Shown here: positions 4,241 to 29,913 of the stretch, piece by piece
Numbering within the stretch: the stretch's first letter is position 1
How the letters are laid out: the number at the start of each line of letters is the position of its first letter
Position numbers and translations under genes: made by a program
Notes under the pieces: model-generated
What the model was told of the DNA's origin: nothing
Database searches by the model: none
The model's input: the letters and a program-made list of their open reading frames with translations, nothing else
Assembly: GCA_903882935.1 (NCBI GenBank)
Contig: CAIRZB010000006.1
Coordinates: forward strand, 1 to 64,000
Direction of reading: 5' to 3'
DNA length: 64,000 bases
Source of the DNA: an uncultured Parafilimonas sp.
GTDB taxonomy: Bacteria > Bacteroidota > Bacteroidia > Chitinophagales > Chitinophagaceae

Positions 4241-4771
4241 TAACCCTTCATTACCCTGTTAATTACTCCTTACTGGGCCGTATTATTAAGCGCTGGGCTG
4301 GGTCGTTCGTCATAAAACTCAACAGCCAGTTAAAGCATAACTTGGCTTTGTTTCTAAAGCCTACTATTGGTATAATATGTGTTAACTATCACGTAAGCCA
4401 TGCCCAAAAAACCCTTTTAAAAGGCATTGTCAACATAGCACCTTAATAGCCAAAGTAAAAGGCGATAAATCTTATCAACCAATCAAACCACCACCCCGTT
4501 TTGCCAGCTAATGCCTTAGCAAGGTTAATACCAGCAAAGCCCCCGCCAAGTATTACTATTTTAATGCTAACAATGCCTACATGTACATTAAACCCGGCCT
4601 TTGCAGCAAAGCCCAACTGCACCAATGCCGCCGTACAACACAATAATCCATAACACAACAGTAACCAATGTAAGACAGCAATTGTTTACTATTCCACTGC
4701 CTGCAGCAAAGCCCGGGGAATACATTAACGGTTTGGTCAACACCAACGCTAGCCAAACACATCTACATGTT
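4241..4771. other. 530-bp gene-poor spacer upstream of YceI and downstream of the RND pump
   Basis: No complete gene is supported. It contains a probable NAD(P)/FAD-oxidoreductase N-terminal remnant (about 4443-4574, minus strand). It also holds two similar stretches with GCAGCAAAGCCC at about 4604 and 4700, the first part of an imperfect CTTTGC/GCAAAG palindrome. The short open frames across it have no recognisable domains. Confidence 0.5.
4443..4574 (-). pseudogene. N-terminal fragment of an NDH-2-like NAD(P)/FAD oxidoreductase
   Basis: The minus strand encodes SIKIVILGGGFAGINLAKAL followed by AGKTG. This is the beta-alpha-beta Rossmann start (GxGxxG as GGGFAG) that opens type II NADH dehydrogenases and related flavoproteins. 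The expected continuation (TLVDKxNYH...PLLYQV) is missing in this frame, although a neighbouring frame contains LVDKIY, which suggests a frameshift before decay. Only about 25 residues are convincing. No ATG precedes the match. The rest of a roughly 420-residue enzyme is absent, so this is a degraded fragment. Confidence 0.45.
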
Positions 4772-7700
4772 TTAAAGCACTGCTGATTGTTGTGGCACCA
4801 CGGGTTCCTTTTTGGGAAACCACTGCCTACATTTGTCGGCAATCCTATCCACGGTGTAGTATACCATGGGCACTACAAAAACGGTAAGGCAAAGGCTGGT
4901 GCTAAGGCCGCCTATAATTACCCAGGCAAGGCCGTTTTTCCATTCACTACCCGCTGCGGTTGAGGTGGCTATGGGCAGCATGCCTATCACCATGGCCATG
5001 GTGGTCATTAGTATGGGGCGCAACCTTTCCCTGCCGGCCTCAACCAAGGCCTGCCAGGTGGTATCGCCGTGTTCTTTGCGGTGGTTGGCAAAATCAACAA
5101 TCAAAATGGCATTTTTAGCCACAAGGCCCAACAGCATGATCATACCCAATATGGTGAAAATACTCATGGACGATTTGGTGAGTGCCAGAATAATGAAGAC
5201 ACCTATAAATGCTACAGGGATAGAAAACAATACTACAAGCGGATATATGAAATTGTTATACAGTGCCACCATTACCAAATACATTAATATGATAGCTGCT
5301 ACAATGGCCATGCCCATCGCGCCGAATGAATCGCCTTGGCGCTCAATGTCGCCGCTCCAACGCAGGTCAATACCGGCTGGCAACGGCTTTTCTACCAGCG
5401 ATTTTTTTATTTCATCGGCCACAACACCCGCTGTAATACCCAGCACATCACTTTTTACCGTAACGGAGGTGCGGCGGTCTTTGCGCTCCAGCACGCTGGG
5501 CCCGCTGCCTTGCACCACATCTGCAAACTGCGACAACTTTATTAACTGCCCACTTGGGTTTACAAAAGCTATGTTCTTAACGTCTTCTACGTTGTGCTTG
5601 TCAAAATCGTCGTACTTAACCCGTATGTCGTACTCGTTTGTACCCACCCGGTATTTTGCATCATCGTTGCCTGCGTAAGCATTTTGCAATACGGCCCCCA
5701 CCTGGTTTATGTTTAGCCCGAGCTGGCTCATCTTCTCGCGGTTAATATTTACTTCCACCTCAGGGTTGCCGTCTTCCACTGTTAGTTTTACGTTAATGGC
5801 ACCGGGTATAGCCTTAATGCGTTGTTTAAGCTCGTTGGCGGTTGCCATTAGCTGGGTGGCATTTTCGCCGTTCAACACTATTTGTATAGGCTCCCCGCTG
5901 TTTATCATGCTAACCATGGTAGGGCTTACTTTTACGCCGGCAAAGTGTTTGGCAACATCCTCGCTCTTTTGCAGCATTAGCTTTTCGGTGGGTAGGGTAC
6001 GTTCCTTTTTGTCAACAAGCGTAACGGTAAGCTCCGACTTGTAATCTGAGCCCACACCTGCTACCAGCGACGAGGTACTTGAACCTGACACGTTGCTAAA
6101 AATGGTGGTAACATCCGGCTGTTGGCGCAAATAGGCTTCAATTTCGTTGGTTCGTACATTATTTTGCTTAACGGTGGTTGTTTTATCATATTCAAGTGCC
6201 AGCCTAAACTGCCCTTTGTCACTTTGGGTAACAAACTCGTTGCCTATCACACCCATTTTTACTACCTGGCCGGTTAAAACAAATAACAGTATAACAAACC
6301 CAGTCATTATTAACTTGTGGCTAAGCACCCATTTAAGCGCGTTGGTGTACCAATTGGTTAACGCTGTTATCAGTTTTTCAAAAACAATCAGCGGTTTGTC
6401 CTGCAATTTTCTGGGGTTAAGTATGCTTACCTTGCCAAAGCGGGACGCCAGCCATGGTGTAAGCGTATAACAAACAAACAAGCTTAATAACGTAGCCACC
6501 ACAATAGTGGACGAGTAAGCACGCAGAATGGAGCCGATGCTATTTTGTATCAAGCACAGGGGGCCGAATACCACCACATCCACCATGGTGATGGCTACTG
6601 CTGAGAAGCCAATCTCCTTGCGGCCGTCAAGCGCGGCAGTACGTTTGTCTTTGCCCATAGCCAAGTGGCGGTGGATATTCTCCAGCACCACAATACTGTC
6701 ATCCACCAATATGCCAATCACCAACGATAGGCCAAGCAGAGTCATTAAATTAAGCGTGTAGCCGAACAAATACATGGCGATAAATGTGGAAATAAGCGAA
6801 GTGGGTATGGCCACCAACACAATCAGCGAGTCGCGGATACTATGCAGGAACAGCAACATGATTACAGCCACCAGTACCACCGCCAACATAAGGTCTTCCA
6901 CCACGCCGTTGGCTGCATCCAGTGTATAATCCGCCGTGTCATCGGCAATCACAAATTTCACGCCGTTAGCGGCATACCGCTTTTCAACTTGCGTAATTTT
7001 TTCTTTTATCTGTTTGCTTATGGCCACAGCGTTGGCATCCCCTTGTTTTTTTATCAATAAGCCTATGCCGTTTTGCCCGTTGTAGCGGAATACGCTGCTG
7101 GCATCTTTTGTAATATCGGCCACGCTCGCCACATCGCTGAGTCTTATGGGGCTACCCGCTGCAGGCAAACCAACAACCAAATTGTTCAATTCGGAAACAG
7201 AACTGTATTTGCCCGAAAGGCGGACCGTCATTTGGCCCATCGTTTCAGATTTAACCTTGCCTGCCGGGAATTCCTGGTTGCCATTGGCCACCGCAGTTGT
7301 AACGTTTAAAATGGAAAGACCGTAATAATCAAGCTTGTCTTTGTTAATGTTCACCTGTATCTCCCGCTCTTGGCCACCAATCAATGTAATTTCGCCCACA
7401 CCCGGCACCTGTTGGAACAATGGGTTTATTTGGTTTTTGATGATGTCATAAAAGGCGGCGTTATCCAACGATGAAGTGGCCATTAACTGCATAATCGGCT
7501 GGTCGCTGGGGGTTACCTTGGATATGTTGGGCGATTTAACATCTGTGGGAAAATCACCCATGATGTTGTTAATCTTCCGTTGTACGTCCTGCTGTTTTTG
7601 GTTTATGTCGCTGCCGGTGTTAAATTCCGCAGTAATAATCGATGTGCCCTCCAATGATTGGGATGTGATTGTTTTTATGGCATCTATCGAACTTAGTTGG

Positions 7701-15356: not shown

Positions 15357-16160
15357 ATGCATATAGCCATTATTGGCGCGGGCAACGTTGCTACTGTGTT
15401 GGCCAGGCTGCTGAAGCAAAACGGCCATATCTTGGCAGGCATTTACAATGCTTCTGTTGCCAGTGCCCAAACGCTGGCGGGCGAAGTATCAGCTTTGCAC
15501 TACGGCAATATCGCCAGCATCACCCCACACGCCGAACTATACATCATCACGGTAACCGACACTGCCATTGCCGAAATTAGCAACGCAATAAAACTGCCCG
15601 GTAAAATAGTGGTCCACACCTCGGGCGCAACACCCAAAAGCATCTTAAGCAATATATCCGCCTACCACGGCGTGCTTTACCCGTTGCAAAGCCTTAGGAA
15701 AGAGGCCAGCCACCAGCCAGTGATACCCTTTTTAATTGACGGAAGCGACAATATTGTGCGTGAGGAAATAAGGGCTGTGGCTGAAAGCATATCATTTTCA
15801 GTGCATAATGCCGACGATGGCCAGCGCTTACGGCTACATTTGGCGGCCGTAATGGTATCTAACTTTACTAATTATTTATACACTCTTGCTAATGATTATT
15901 GTAACCAGCAACAAATACCTTTTACCGCTTTGGTACCATTAATAGAAGAGGTTGCGGCAAGAACCGCACTGTACAACCCGGCCACCATGCAAACAGGCCC
16001 TGCCGTACGGGGCGACCTGGCAACCGTTGAAAAGCACTTGGCATTGCTGGCCGAATACCCTTTGCAGCAACAAGTTTACAAGCAATTAACGGAGAGTATT
16101 ATGGCATTTTACAATACCGTGGGAACAAAAAAATCCCCGCCAGAGAACAGGCAGGGATAG
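15357..16160 (+). CDS. Rossmann-fold and DUF2520 domain protein (putative NAD(P)-dependent oxidoreductase)
   Basis: The 267-residue protein opens with a dinucleotide-binding fold (MHIAIIGAGNVATVLARLL, GxGxxG), followed by a ProC-like region (ITVTDTAIAEI, VVHTSGATPKSIL). The DUF2520 helical domain starts at about residue 125 (FLIDGSDNIVREEIRAVAES, LHLAAVMVSNFTNYLYTLA). It resembles pyrroline-5-carboxylate reductase and 6-phosphogluconate dehydrogenase-like enzymes, but the substrate is unknown. It precedes kdsC, UbiA and maf on the same strand, an arrangement I recall as common in Bacteroidota. The last nine codons form a hairpin. Confidence 0.8.
   Translation: MHIAIIGAGNVATVLARLLKQNGHILAGIYNASVASAQTLAGEVSALHYGNIASITPHAELYIITVTDTAIAEISNAIKLPGKIVVHTSGATPKSILSNISAYHGVLYPLQSLRKEASHQPVIPFLIDGSDNIVREEIRAVAESISFSVHNADDGQRLRLHLAAVMVSNFTNYLYTLANDYCNQQQIPFTALVPLIEEVAARTALYNPATMQTGPAVRGDLATVEKHLALLAEYPLQQQVYKQLTESIMAFYNTVGTKKSPPENRQG
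16133..16158 (+). terminator. Hairpin overlapping the 3' end of the DUF2520 gene
   Basis: ATCCCCGCC (16133-16141) pairs with GGCAGGGAT (16150-16158) with one mismatch and an 8-nt loop, reaching into the stop codon. A preceding A-run but no T-run makes forward termination weak; it may be a weak terminator or a stability element. Confidence 0.4.
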
Positions 16161-16415
16161 TTATGAGCAAGCAACCGAAAAAAATAAAAACCTAAAAATC
16201 AATCCTACCAAATTTATTGCCGCCCGTTGCCGAACGCCAATAATATTATGATGTTTTAATTGTTTTAACGAAAATACAAGTTTCGGCTAAAACAAACAAC
16301 TGTTTGTTATTTTTTTATATTTTACAGAACCTAATGACAAAGTTTAAAATCTTTTAGGCCGGTTAAACATAACATCTGTTATTTTGCAGGCTATTACAAT
16401 AAGCCCGCAGCAAAC

Positions 16416-25196: not shown

Positions 25197-26786
25197 ATGG
25201 GAAGTAAAAAATTACAGGTTTGGTTGCCGTTAATTTTTGCGATAGTGTTGGTGTTGGGCATGTACTTAGGGTTTACGTTGCGCGCCTCAACTGCAGGCTC
25301 GGCGGGCTTTTTACGAAACAACGGCAACAGCCCTGTGCAAGAAGTTACTGACCTGATTAAAAATAAATATGTTGATAATATAAAACCCGACAGCCTGAAT
25401 GACCAAGTGATTGACAATGTATTGTCGCACTTAGACCCGCATTCGGTTTTTATACCCGCCAAGGACCTGCAATATGTGAACGAGGATTTGGAAGGGCATT
25501 TTCAAGGCATTGGGGTGGAGTTTCAAGTTTTTAAGGACACCGTAAACATTATTAGCGTAATACCAGGCGGGCCAAGCGACAAAGCGGGTGTGCAGGTTGG
25601 TGACAAATTAATTAAGGTTAACGATACTACCAACATTGCAGGTACCCATATAAACAATACTAACATACGAAAGTATTTGCGCGGGCCTGCGGGATCAACA
25701 GTATTGGTAACAGTGTTAAGGGGCGGCCAATTAAAAAAACTGACCATTGAACGCGGCATGATAGCCCTGCCCTCCGTGGATGCCTTTTATATGATAGCCC
25801 CACAAACAGGCTATTTGCGTATAAATAAGTTTGCAGAAACCACCTACCCAGAGTTTATGGAAGCTATGGGCAAACTGCAAAAACAAGGCATGCAAAAATT
25901 AATATTGGACCTGCGCGGCAACGGTGGCGGGCTGGTTGACCAAGCTACCAATATTGCAGACGAGTTTTTAGATGGCGACAAAATGATTGTATATACCCAA
26001 GGTGCAAAAACCCCACGGACAGATTACAGGAGCAATAAAGAAGGGATATTTGAAAAAGGAAAACTTACTGTGCTGGTGGATGAATCCACCGCATCGGCCA
26101 GTGAAATATTGAGCGGTGCTTTGCAGGATTGGGACAGAGCCACCATTATTGGCCGCAGAACATTTGGCAAGGGCCTTGTTCAACAACAGTTTAATTTAAC
26201 CGGGGGCGCGGCGGTTCGTTTAACCATCGCCCGCTATTATACGCCCCTCGGCCGCAATATTCAAAAACCTTACAATAAGGGCAGGGAACAATATGAGGAA
26301 GAACTGATGCAGCGCTTTCATGATGGGGAGGTGGTACATGGCGACACGGCAAAACCCACTGGGCCTGCCTTTAAAACCCAGAGCGGCCGTATTGTTTACG
26401 GCGGAGGCGGCATTACGCCTGATATATTTGTACCGTTTGACACTACCACACAATCAAAACTGCTTACACAAATGTACATACGAAGTACGTTGAGCAATTT
26501 TGTGTACAATTACTATATGGAGCATAAAGCCGGTTTGCAGACATTTAAAACACCGGCAGATTTATACAAAGGTTTTAAACCCAGCGATACCGAATGGAAA
26601 CAACTGGCTGAATACGCGCAAAAAGACAGTGTGGATATACAATCGGCATCTGCCAAAACCAAGGCCGACATATTAAATATTTTACCCGCACTGCTGGCCA
26701 GGCAAATTTGGCGCACCGAAGGCTATTTTGAAGTAAGCAACCAAAACGACCCGGTGGTTAAGAAAGCGTTGGAAACGTTGAAATGA
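25197..26786 (+). CDS. ctpA: S41-family C-terminal processing peptidase (CtpA/Prc-like)
   Basis: The 529-residue protein has an N-terminal membrane anchor (LPLIFAIVLVLGMYLGFTL), a PDZ domain at about 95-190 (GIGVEFQVF...VISVIPGGPSDKAGVQVGDKLIKVND) and the S41 protease core. The catalytic dyad is S300 in STASASEI and K325 in GRRTFGKGLVQ, 25 residues apart as in Tsp. It trims C-termini of envelope proteins. The gene is followed within six bases by a 13-unit heptad repeat array. Confidence 0.93.
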   Translation: MGSKKLQVWLPLIFAIVLVLGMYLGFTLRASTAGSAGFLRNNGNSPVQEVTDLIKNKYVDNIKPDSLNDQVIDNVLSHLDPHSVFIPAKDLQYVNEDLEGHFQGIGVEFQVFKDTVNIISVIPGGPSDKAGVQVGDKLIKVNDTTNIAGTHINNTNIRKYLRGPAGSTVLVTVLRGGQLKKLTIERGMIALPSVDAFYMIAPQTGYLRINKFAETTYPEFMEAMGKLQKQGMQKLILDLRGNGGGLVDQATNIADEFLDGDKMIVYTQGAKTPRTDYRSNKEGIFEKGKLTVLVDESTASASEILSGALQDWDRATIIGRRTFGKGLVQQQFNLTGGAAVRLTIARYYTPLGRNIQKPYNKGREQYEEELMQRFHDGEVVHGDTAKPTGPAFKTQSGRIVYGGGGITPDIFVPFDTTTQSKLLTQMYIRSTLSNFVYNYYMEHKAGLQTFKTPADLYKGFKPSDTEWKQLAEYAQKDSVDIQSASAKTKADILNILPALLARQIWRTEGYFEVSNQNDPVVKKALETLK

Positions 26787-26791
26787 TGATC

Positions 26792-26882
26792 GGGAGACGT
26801 GAATCGGGAATCGTGAATCGGCAATCGTGAATCGGCAATCGTGAATCGGCAATCGTGAATCGGGAATTGTGAGACGTGAAAG
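26792..26882 (+). repeat. Heptanucleotide array A: 13 units downstream of ctpA
   Basis: Thirteen consecutive 7-bp units, with no slip in register, follow the pattern NNGAATC, for example GTGAATC, GGGAATC, GGCAATC and GTGAGAC. The core alternates GTGAATC and GGCAATC. The first unit starts six bases after the ctpA stop and the array is on the sense strand of ctpA. Confidence 0.9.
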
Positions 26883-28714: not shown

Positions 28715-28848
28715 ACAATCAGTGTTTAATATCAAACGTCAATCATGCTGCTGTACCGTGAAGGCAACGCCATGAAAATGCGATCAACAGTTCTCAATAT
28801 TTTTCATTACATAAAAATAGAAAAACGGCCAAGGTGAATGCCACCCCC

Positions 28849-29016
28849 GTTTCACAATTCAAGTTTCAGGATTCTCGTTTCACGTCCCACGCTTCCCGTT
28901 TCCCATTTCACGTCCCACAATTCCCGTTTCACGATTCACGATTCACGTCTCTCGATTCACGTTTCTCGCTTCACGTTTCTCGATTCCCGTCTCACGATTC
29001 ACGATTCCCGTCCCTC
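28849..29016 (-). repeat. Heptanucleotide array B: 24 units downstream of fabD
   Basis: Exactly 24 contiguous 7-bp units (168 bp) with no register slip. On the minus strand they read NNGAATC or NNGAAAC, e.g. GTGAATC, GAGAAAC, GGGAATC and GTGAGAC. The array begins three bases after the fabD stop codon and has the same orientation relative to its upstream gene as array A. It accidentally keeps open frames on the plus strand that encode low-complexity HDSRF-like peptides. Confidence 0.92.
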
Positions 29017-29019
29017 GCC

Positions 29020-29913
29020 CTAACCAATGCCATTCACCACAGTATCCTTTACAATCTTACCCACCAGCCCTTGCAATACCTTGCCCGGGCCTGCTTCTGT
29101 AAAATGCGTGGCACCGTCTGCGGCCATGGCCTGCACACTCTGTGTCCAACGCACGGCACCGGTAAGTTGCGCAATCAAATTATTTTTTATATCAGCGGGG
29201 TTGGTAACCGCTTTTGCAACCACATTTTGGTAAACCGGGCAGCTGGGGTGGCTGAACGTGGTAGCCTCAATGGCTGCGGCCAGCTCTTCCCTCGCAGGCT
29301 CCATCAATGGGGAATGGAAAGCCCCTCCCACGGGCAGCACCAAGGCCCTTTTGGCCCCTGCGGCCTTCATTCTTTCGCAGGCTATTTCAATGCCCTTAAT
29401 ACTGCCGCTTATAACCAACTGCCCGGGGCAGTTATAATTGGCAGCCACTACTACCTCGCCCGTTTCTGTCTGCACCGCCGCGCAAATTTCCTCCACCTTT
29501 TCATCAGGCAAGGCCAATACGGCCGCCATTGACGATGGGTTGGTTTCGCAGGCCTTCTGCATTGCATTGGCACGCAGGCTAACCAATTTAAGCGCATCGG
29601 TAAAATGCAAGGTACCGTTAACCACCAATGCGCTGAATTCGCCTAAAGAATGACCGGCTACCATGTCGGGCACCAAATGGTTAAGCGTTTTATACGCAAT
29701 TACCGAATGCAGAAATATGGCCGGCTGGGTAATATTGGTTTGTTTCAACTGTTCGTCGGTGCCGCCAAACATGGTATCGCTTATGCGGAAGCCGATAGTA
29801 TCGTTGGCTTGCTCAAACAGTTCCTTCGCTAGGTCGTTTGTATCATACAAAATCTTCCCCATGCCACTAAACTGCGAGCCCTGGCCGGGGAATATAAAAG
29901 CATGTTTGCCCAT
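29020..29913 (-). CDS. fabD: Malonyl-CoA:ACP transacylase
   Basis: The 297-residue protein has the N-terminal FIFPGQGSQFSGMG, the nucleophile elbow AGHSLGEFSAL (S89), NCPGQLVISG, and the catalytic His in GGAFHSPLM. It loads malonate onto acyl carrier protein for fatty-acid synthesis. Length and motifs are normal. It stands apart from other fab genes. The stop is followed after three bases by heptad array B. Confidence 0.95.
   Translation of the reverse strand: MGKHAFIFPGQGSQFSGMGKILYDTNDLAKELFEQANDTIGFRISDTMFGGTDEQLKQTNITQPAIFLHSVIAYKTLNHLVPDMVAGHSLGEFSALVVNGTLHFTDALKLVSLRANAMQKACETNPSSMAAVLALPDEKVEEICAAVQTETGEVVVAANYNCPGQLVISGSIKGIEIACERMKAAGAKRALVLPVGGAFHSPLMEPAREELAAAIEATTFSHPSCPVYQNVVAKAVTNPADIKNNLIAQLTGAVRWTQSVQAMAADGATHFTEAGPGKVLQGLVGKIVKDTVVNGIG

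Follow-up and report, generated by a model that had tools for sequence, protein, structure and literature searches.

Heptad arrays at gene boundaries in Chitinophagaceae: the array behind fabD as a possible overgrown arm of a palindrome

Both heptamer repeats close to gene ends and palindromic sequences within open reading frames are already known. Heptamers are reported to be over-represented among bacterial simple repeats, and two studies offer no settled function or cause for them (PMC4692102 section 16, PMC4679880). In Xanthomonas and Nostoc, heptameric repeats of the types GGGAATC and GGGGA(C/T)T have been described (Rehm et al. 2015, PMC4692102); they occur at many loci, beside stop codons when on the coding strand and beside start codons when on the non-coding strand, and are nearer to their 5' than to their 3' neighbour. 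The heptads described here share the 7-nt unit, the many loci and this placement, and one of their variants, CGGGAAT, is a rotation of GGGAATC. The Rehm-type repeats, however, occur preferentially as four units and fold into G-quadruplexes in vitro. Here the main units, CGTGAAW, lack a G tract, and arrays can be 24-42 units long; arms are often mirrored, the unit differs from species to species, and certain copies lie in frame inside enzymes. The TAACTGA heptamers of Beggiatoaceae and some Cyanobacteria and Bacteroidetes (MacGregor 2015, PMC4679880) are likewise intergenic and, in some Bacteroidetes, form long arrays beside other heptamers; but in the genome chiefly described they lie mostly just upstream of starts, have one fixed unit, and include a single reported indirect repeat. 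The excerpted text of PMC4060949 holds nothing on heptamers in Bacteroidota, the phylum of the heptad host.

Palindromic elements offer a second comparison. REPs (GTAG/CGTC) are placed, in PMC3733652, within 20 bp of 3' ends in convergent and co-directional gaps; some supply the stop codon, and copies occur inside ORFs, including those of tRNA synthetases. The heptads resemble them in these respects, and in one relative, G022, palindromes near 3' ends were found in both kinds of gap. In contrast, REPs are 20-40 bp long, with tagged ends and a RAYT transposase, none of which was found to characterise the heptads. Rickettsia palindromic elements, as summarised in PMC10969869, also place palindromic DNA in frame in unrelated genes, but they form families of about 150 bp, whereas the heptad arms have free length; a conserved element sequence of about 150 bp was not found here, and unit order between loci was not above shuffles. 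The combination of a kept step, a changing word, mirrored purine-first arms and a recurrent protein stretch was not found in the open-licence literature searched.

Heptad palindromes appear to be a class of repetitive DNA in Chitinophagaceae in which a purine-led arm, built of units of 7 or at times 8 nt, sets out from a gene boundary, runs inward and is often faced by a mirrored pyrimidine arm. We regard it as an evenly balanced proposition that the array behind fabD is one overgrown arm of such a palindrome, growing in place until halted at gene boundaries.

The array behind fabD and its unit family

The window, by which we mean the whole 64,000-nt stretch of DNA analysed, comes from a 5.54 Mb genome (G000, here the own genome) and holds two arrays of one heptad family. 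Array B (28849..29016, minus strand) comprises 168 bp and 24 heptads of the form CG[T/G/A]G[A/G][A/G][A/T/G] without indels, and its purine-led strand reads away from fabD. That gene (29020..29913, minus strand; TAG stop at 29022-29020) encodes a member of the malonyl-CoA ACP transacylase family (Pfam PF00698, 1.1e-37), and the named FabD relatives nearest to it are from Chitinophagaceae. In the CGNGRRD register (28850-29017), 19 of the 24 units are exact and 5 carry one mismatch, while 2000 composition shuffles of the array gave at most 3 exact units; the initial annotation's reading of 24 uninterrupted heptads just after the fabD stop is thus confirmed. The gap from stop to array is 3 nt in that annotation's register and 2 nt in the CG register. 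TRF also reports periods of 14, 21 and 63 bp in array B, and a further degenerate unit, CGGGGGT, at its inner end (rest of the unit at 28843..28848, minus strand) extends it to 28843. Array A (26791..26881, plus strand) has 13 heptads of the same unit family and begins 4 nt after the stop of a ctpA-like S41 peptidase gene recognised by domain match (25197..26786, plus strand), on the sense strand; the shared consensus, position and polarity first noticed for the two arrays hold.

Beyond the inner end of array B lies ATTCACC (28833..28839, minus strand), the reverse complement of GGTGAAT and the complement of the inner unit type RGTGAAT. Together with the inner end of the array it can form a small fold-back, GGTGGCATTCACC. 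We infer that ATTCACC is a single unit left over from a facing pyrimidine arm of array B. A terminator-like stem-loop with a T5 tail, GGGGTGGCATTCACCTT followed by GGCCGTTTTT, is weakly indicated at 28821..28847 (minus strand), with 3 sites of this kind in the stretch against 3.6 expected in shuffles. As RNA, array B shows no excess of structure over shuffles (z +0.97), and it does not provide the stable hairpin and T tract after the stop that would mark an intrinsic terminator, so that a hairpin-terminator role for array B itself, one of the functions first proposed for it, is not favoured. GGG, the tract that a Rehm-type G-quadruplex would need four times, occurs in 8 of its 24 units, with one borderline cluster; the commonest units in the genome, CGTGAAT and CGTGAAA, lack GGG.

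A 232-aa open frame (28834-29532, plus strand) lies antisense to array B and fabD. Because the complement strand of CGTGAA arrays is stop-free in every frame, this frame is likely a spurious gene call; open antisense frames of heptad arrays can mislead gene finders.

Across the own genome, three tandem CGNGRRD units occur at 265 overlapping places and the reversed pattern at 0, and the unit family is present at at least 48 loci, arrays A and B included, a lower bound because arrays that end in a differently broken unit escape the list. Among 59 genomes, the own one included, 17 contain the pattern, at 1 to 513 places each, and 4 contain the reversed control, at no more than 3 places (G004, 3; G007, 2; G048, 1; G055, 1); in the relatives G014, G024 and G025 the pattern catches other words too. 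Arrays lie near contig ends in L045 (C32), L048 (C40) and L046 (C34), and assemblies may break there, undercounting arrays.

Position at gene boundaries and mirrored arms

The position test took in 64 array clusters of the own genome. Of these, 17 lie in ORFs: 16 within nine genes that homology supports, and 1 in an unidentified ORF of L067. The other 47 are intergenic, and 44 of them have a called gene on both sides. Genes in the own genome and in G022 were called with a simple codon model made for this analysis, and their starts are uncertain. With the unit strand taken as direction, the 5' neighbour is the nearer gene for 37 of the 44 (p 5e-6). A gap of at most 20 nt, counting overlaps, separates 28 of the 44 from that neighbour, and 1 from the neighbour on the 3' side. 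Counting all intergenic clusters, 24 start on the sense strand within 20 nt of a stop codon or overlap it, 6 start on the antisense strand 9-18 nt upstream of a start codon, and 8 of the 47 overlap a called stop codon. Intergenic arrays have their start at the edge of a gene and extend away from it, in both directions, in agreement with the rule given for the Xanthomonas and Nostoc heptamers in section 13 of PMC4692102. The gene caller missed one four-helix gene in L066, an omission that lowers the support for this boundary rule rather than raising it. This gene is a PF05635 four-helix-bundle gene (about 4555-4892, G000:C98) flanked on both sides by heptad arrays, one of which starts directly at its stop codon.

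The initial annotation had seen both arrays abut stop codons on the sense strand of the gene upstream, and had named random scatter as an observation that would count against its proposals. The 24 sense-strand clusters at stops are not random scatter. Placement at 3' ends describes those 24 clusters but not the 6 antisense ones before starts or the 16 in frame in nine genes, and with these antisense and in-frame copies the polarity does not follow transcription. Since arrays leave stops on the sense strand and starts on the antisense strand, the polarity is geometric rather than transcriptional, and departure from genes in both directions speaks against a purely transcriptional role.

Many arrays of G022 are paired. 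In the own genome only 32 of 61 period-7 clusters belong to an inverted pair by a lenient test and 15 by a strict one, counts that tell against the palindrome explanation. G022 has 513 CGNGRRD places on 3 contigs and was sampled evenly on contig C1, in two sets that together comprise 80 segments of 20 kb. These sets hold 77 and 120 arrays of period 7, the next period, 14, having 5 and 9. Inverted pairs account for 55 of 64 clusters of set 1 by the lenient test and 36 by the strict one, and set 2 yields 53 strict hairpins. The purine arm comes first in 31 strict hairpins of set 1 and 50 of set 2, together 81 of 89. Unit order is mirrored between arms beyond unit shuffles (p<=0.05) in 20 of 31 pairs from G022 (first sample set), 5 of 10 from the own genome and 4 of 6 from fabD loci.

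Such palindromes after stop codons could be selected transcription terminators or insulators, an RNA hairpin after the stop halting polymerase from one or both sides. Their distribution in G022 fits this: relative to intergenic regions longer than 60 nt, strict hairpins occupy 27 of 102 convergent, 53 of 471 co-directional and 8 of 171 divergent ones; the gap is 20 nt or less on the stop side in 82 of 107 cases and on the start side in 7 of 69; and among the 27 convergent hairpins, 17 leave no more than 25 nt to the stop on either side. By eye, moreover, an ordinary T-tailed hairpin occupies the same place after fabD in several relatives (for example L079, L083, L138, L147 and L152). We nevertheless consider the terminator reading unlikely. 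The orientation bias may be mere promoter avoidance, array B is unstructured as RNA, and copies lie in frame in AroA, ValRS, HisRS and TilS. At L298 of G022 (16060-16267), an ordinary T-tailed terminator-like hairpin sits in the loop between two heptad arms. Ordinary hairpins after stops also lack the purine-first bias (102 purine-first, 79 pyrimidine-first and 20 ties in G022; 24, 32 and 5 in the own genome), and we therefore rejected purine-first order as a general property of terminators. Nor do the arm mismatches favour pairing as RNA: on the sense strand, G.U and A.C mismatches number 79:50 in G022 set 1, 74:106 in set 2 and 26:25 in the own genome. With the G.U excess reversed between the G022 sets, the RNA-pairing signal is not replicated, and RNA-level compensation, apparent in set 1 (p 0.013) and reversed in set 2 (p 0.021), was rejected.

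Copies within proteins and changing words in relatives

The 16 in-frame clusters of the own genome lie in nine genes recognised by homology, encoding AroA, ValRS, an amidohydrolase, IspG, GcvP, HisRS, TilS, a DUF7033 protein and a 2-oxoacid dehydrogenase E1 alpha-beta fusion, in which the array is in the linker. Inverted pairs are present among them in ValS, E1, GcvP and the amidohydrolase. Three sense-strand CGTGAA units in a row place a TGA in each reading frame. The sense arms of IspG and AroA, the two examined unit by unit, have variants such as CGTCAA, CGGCAA or CGGGAA for the units that fall in the TGA phase. The arms encode NVNRETG-like and FTIHDSR-like peptides. The copies that lie in frame in aminoacyl-tRNA synthetases and further core enzymes indicate how much extra peptide these proteins can accommodate. 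In G022, in-gene strict hairpins are rare, with 1 of 89 in a called gene.

The AroA and GcvP inserts fall in a length-variable stretch, shorter in most homologues and probably a loop. For GcvP, 8 of 12 loci were compared as protein and 6 as DNA, with L227, L229, L230 and L231 (other strand) left out. The same GcvP stretch carries CGTGAAW and its complement in the own genome, CGTGAAT and CAATCGC in G001, AGTTAAA/AGTGAAG in G002 and CAATCAG in G006; it holds no array in G007 and G008 and is short at two more loci. At this one site the unit differs between species of one genus. Among 10 AroA loci of 14 fetched, the corresponding stretch has an eight-base repeat in G006 and an unrelated palindrome in G001, and is short in seven others. 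The G001 palindrome (aroA of L257) reads CTCCCCTAAAGGGGGAG where the own genome has heptads. The AroA stretch may serve as a site where repeats of various kinds tend to land.

The initial annotation had suggested comparing the fabD loci of related species. After removal of 4 duplicates from 109 such loci, 105 remained (598 kb), selected without regard to repeats. Their tandem arrays with periods of 2-15 number 24 for period 7, 11 for period 8, 2 for period 11, 4 for period 14, 1 for period 15 and 0 for the rest, and the shuffled control gave 0. A period-7 array lies within 400 nt downstream of fabD in 14 of 110 loci, which represent 12 distinct genomes, the own included, since two genomes are counted twice (L080/L130 and L085/L140). 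The units there are, for example, TTGAAAA, TTATTAG and AATTAAA. Relatives keep the step (7, sometimes 8 nt) and not the unit. In L080/L130 the TTATTAG array seems to enter the fabD C-terminus. At 45 of the 110 loci the fabD 3' end was read by eye; the hairpins downstream of fabD in L108, L111, L113 and L124 seem, by eye, to be eight-base rather than seven-base periodic.

A binding array with 7-bp spacing had also been proposed, whose ligand could be a nucleoid or RNA-binding protein. The fixed spacing and the strong unit consensus within a genome are what such an array would show, but binding needs a conserved unit. The change of unit at one site within a genus, the coexistence of several unrelated unit words in G022 and the copies inside enzymes make a binding array highly improbable. 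What the relatives do offer is a gene end or protein stretch that can be traced from species to species as its word is replaced and its step persists; the step is thereby separable from the sequence, and its cause becomes testable.

Growth in place and other origins

Within arrays of the own genome, unit order is repeated more than in unit shuffles (2.03 vs 1.55, sd 0.065), while between loci it shows no excess (1.53 vs 1.55, sd 0.03). This contrast suggests that the arrays grew where they stand, and copying of array segments between loci, for which unit order would have to exceed unit shuffles, was rejected. The initial annotation had held its proposals to be undone if the arrays were simple slippage products without a consensus conserved between loci. 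Half of this describes the arrays, whose unit order recurs within arrays and not between loci; the consensus is nevertheless common across the genome.

On the proposed explanation, arms would lengthen in place through slippage or duplication of 7 nt, and quasipalindrome template switching from arm to arm would copy the growth onto the other arm. Template switching between inverted-repeat arms is a published cause of arm homogenisation and hairpin creation (PMC8604942, PMC8794818), and mirrored arms are its expected product. Growth would replace intergenic DNA until a stop codon or start region is met, where purifying selection would halt it; growth at the outer end that replaces flanking DNA would explain why arms meet, and sometimes overlap, stop codons. 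At array B, one arm may have reached 24-25 units while the other came down to about one unit beside the small T5-tailed hairpin. The arrays would then be mainly a product of mutation and of selection at gene boundaries, with termination or insulation a by-product at some loci.

The direction of growth can be read in part from the order of words. In G022, CGTGAG[A/G/T] lies outside and RGTGAAT inside in 36 of the 39 arms that hold both, and switches from RGATGAC to GG(T/A)CC-type units run 9 to 0. In the own genome, which is of a different genus, 19 RGTGAAT units are likewise shifted inward (mean relative position 0.83 vs 0.47, p 6e-7). Degeneracy there is higher in the inner half of arrays (in 17 arrays, vs 5 of 31; p 0.017), a gradient to which the way of calling array ends may contribute. 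GGATGTT and RGATGAC, on the other hand, are not layered in G022: of 51 arms, 29 have GGATGTT outside (p 0.40), and switches run 49 to 34. Arm mismatch in 51 hairpins there does not rise towards the loop (0.198 outer vs 0.227 inner, p 0.26), on which ground an age gradient between arms in G022 was rejected. Outward growth is therefore partly supported, by one layered word pair and by degeneracy in the own genome. Purine-first polarity and layering are quantitative signatures that any mechanism must reproduce.

Two features lie beyond local growth. Neither slippage nor template switching predicts the purine-first bias, and one unit at 48 loci needs some spread in trans, for which growth in place is insufficient. 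Neither unit order shared between loci nor minimal one-unit hairpins gave support to such spread; these minimal hairpins, the possible seeds, occur at 4 places against 4 in the reversed-pattern control. A trans-acting process might fix one heptad word genome-wide and write its purine strand first into tolerated DNA ends or coding gaps, the word being replaced between species so that older words lie inside and newer ones outside. We think this very unlikely, and to our knowledge no bacterial enzyme writes heptad words into DNA ends. If true, such writing of words would be neither transposition nor simple slippage.

A telomerase-like, RNA-templated enzyme that adds purine units to 3' ends at double-strand breaks, followed by joining, would give purine-arm-first pairs and a genome-wide unit, as seen in the order of arms in G022 and in the one unit family at unlinked loci without shared order. 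It is scarcely credible all the same, given that arms are often mirrored rather than independent, which also led us to reject independent addition to both ends of a break, and that G022 holds several words at once. Matches to the reverse transcriptase family RVT_1 number 0 in the array-bearing genomes G000, G022, G017 and G029; the array-poor G015 and G019 have none either, and G008 and G016 have RVT_1 without an array match.

An alternative to growth from within is that a mobile palindromic element, like a REP, a MITE or a Rickettsia palindromic element, was inserted whole and that its arms later diverged by slippage. The intergenic positions recall those of REPs, which section 15 of PMC3733652 places less than 20 bp from the 3' ends of convergent genes, and the in-frame copies in unrelated genes recall the Rickettsia palindromic elements as presented in PMC10969869. 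The AroA stretch, with a heptad array in one genome and an unrelated palindrome in another, could be read in the same way. Several observations make insertion of a whole element quite improbable. The GTAG/CGTC tags are missing: the first four bases of 82 arrays are CGTC once and GTAG never, and near the outer ends of 89 G022 hairpins CGTC occurs once and GTAG 6 times. Minimal hairpins are not in excess, and numbers of PF05635 genes do not track array numbers (14 genes and 1 place in G006, 4 genes and 513 places in G022), whereby the PF05635 four-helix/IVP gene was rejected as a carrier. RAYT transposases gained no support as carriers from PF01797 numbers, which do not track array numbers in 35 genomes (G022 not among them), or from 20 Y1 transposase loci read by eye in G000, G001, G002, G003, G006, G009 and G017 (G022 not included). 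A period-7 run occurs anywhere in the stretch at 4 of these 20 loci (L237, L239, L246, L250), and the CGTGAA-type runs at 2 of the 20 (L239, L250) are at least 370 nt from the transposase gene. Other short palindromes adjoin many of the Y1 genes by eye, such as GCTCCGCTGGAGC or GCTCCTACGGAGC at L237, L242, L247, L251, L253 and others, and these apparently represent several REP-like families.
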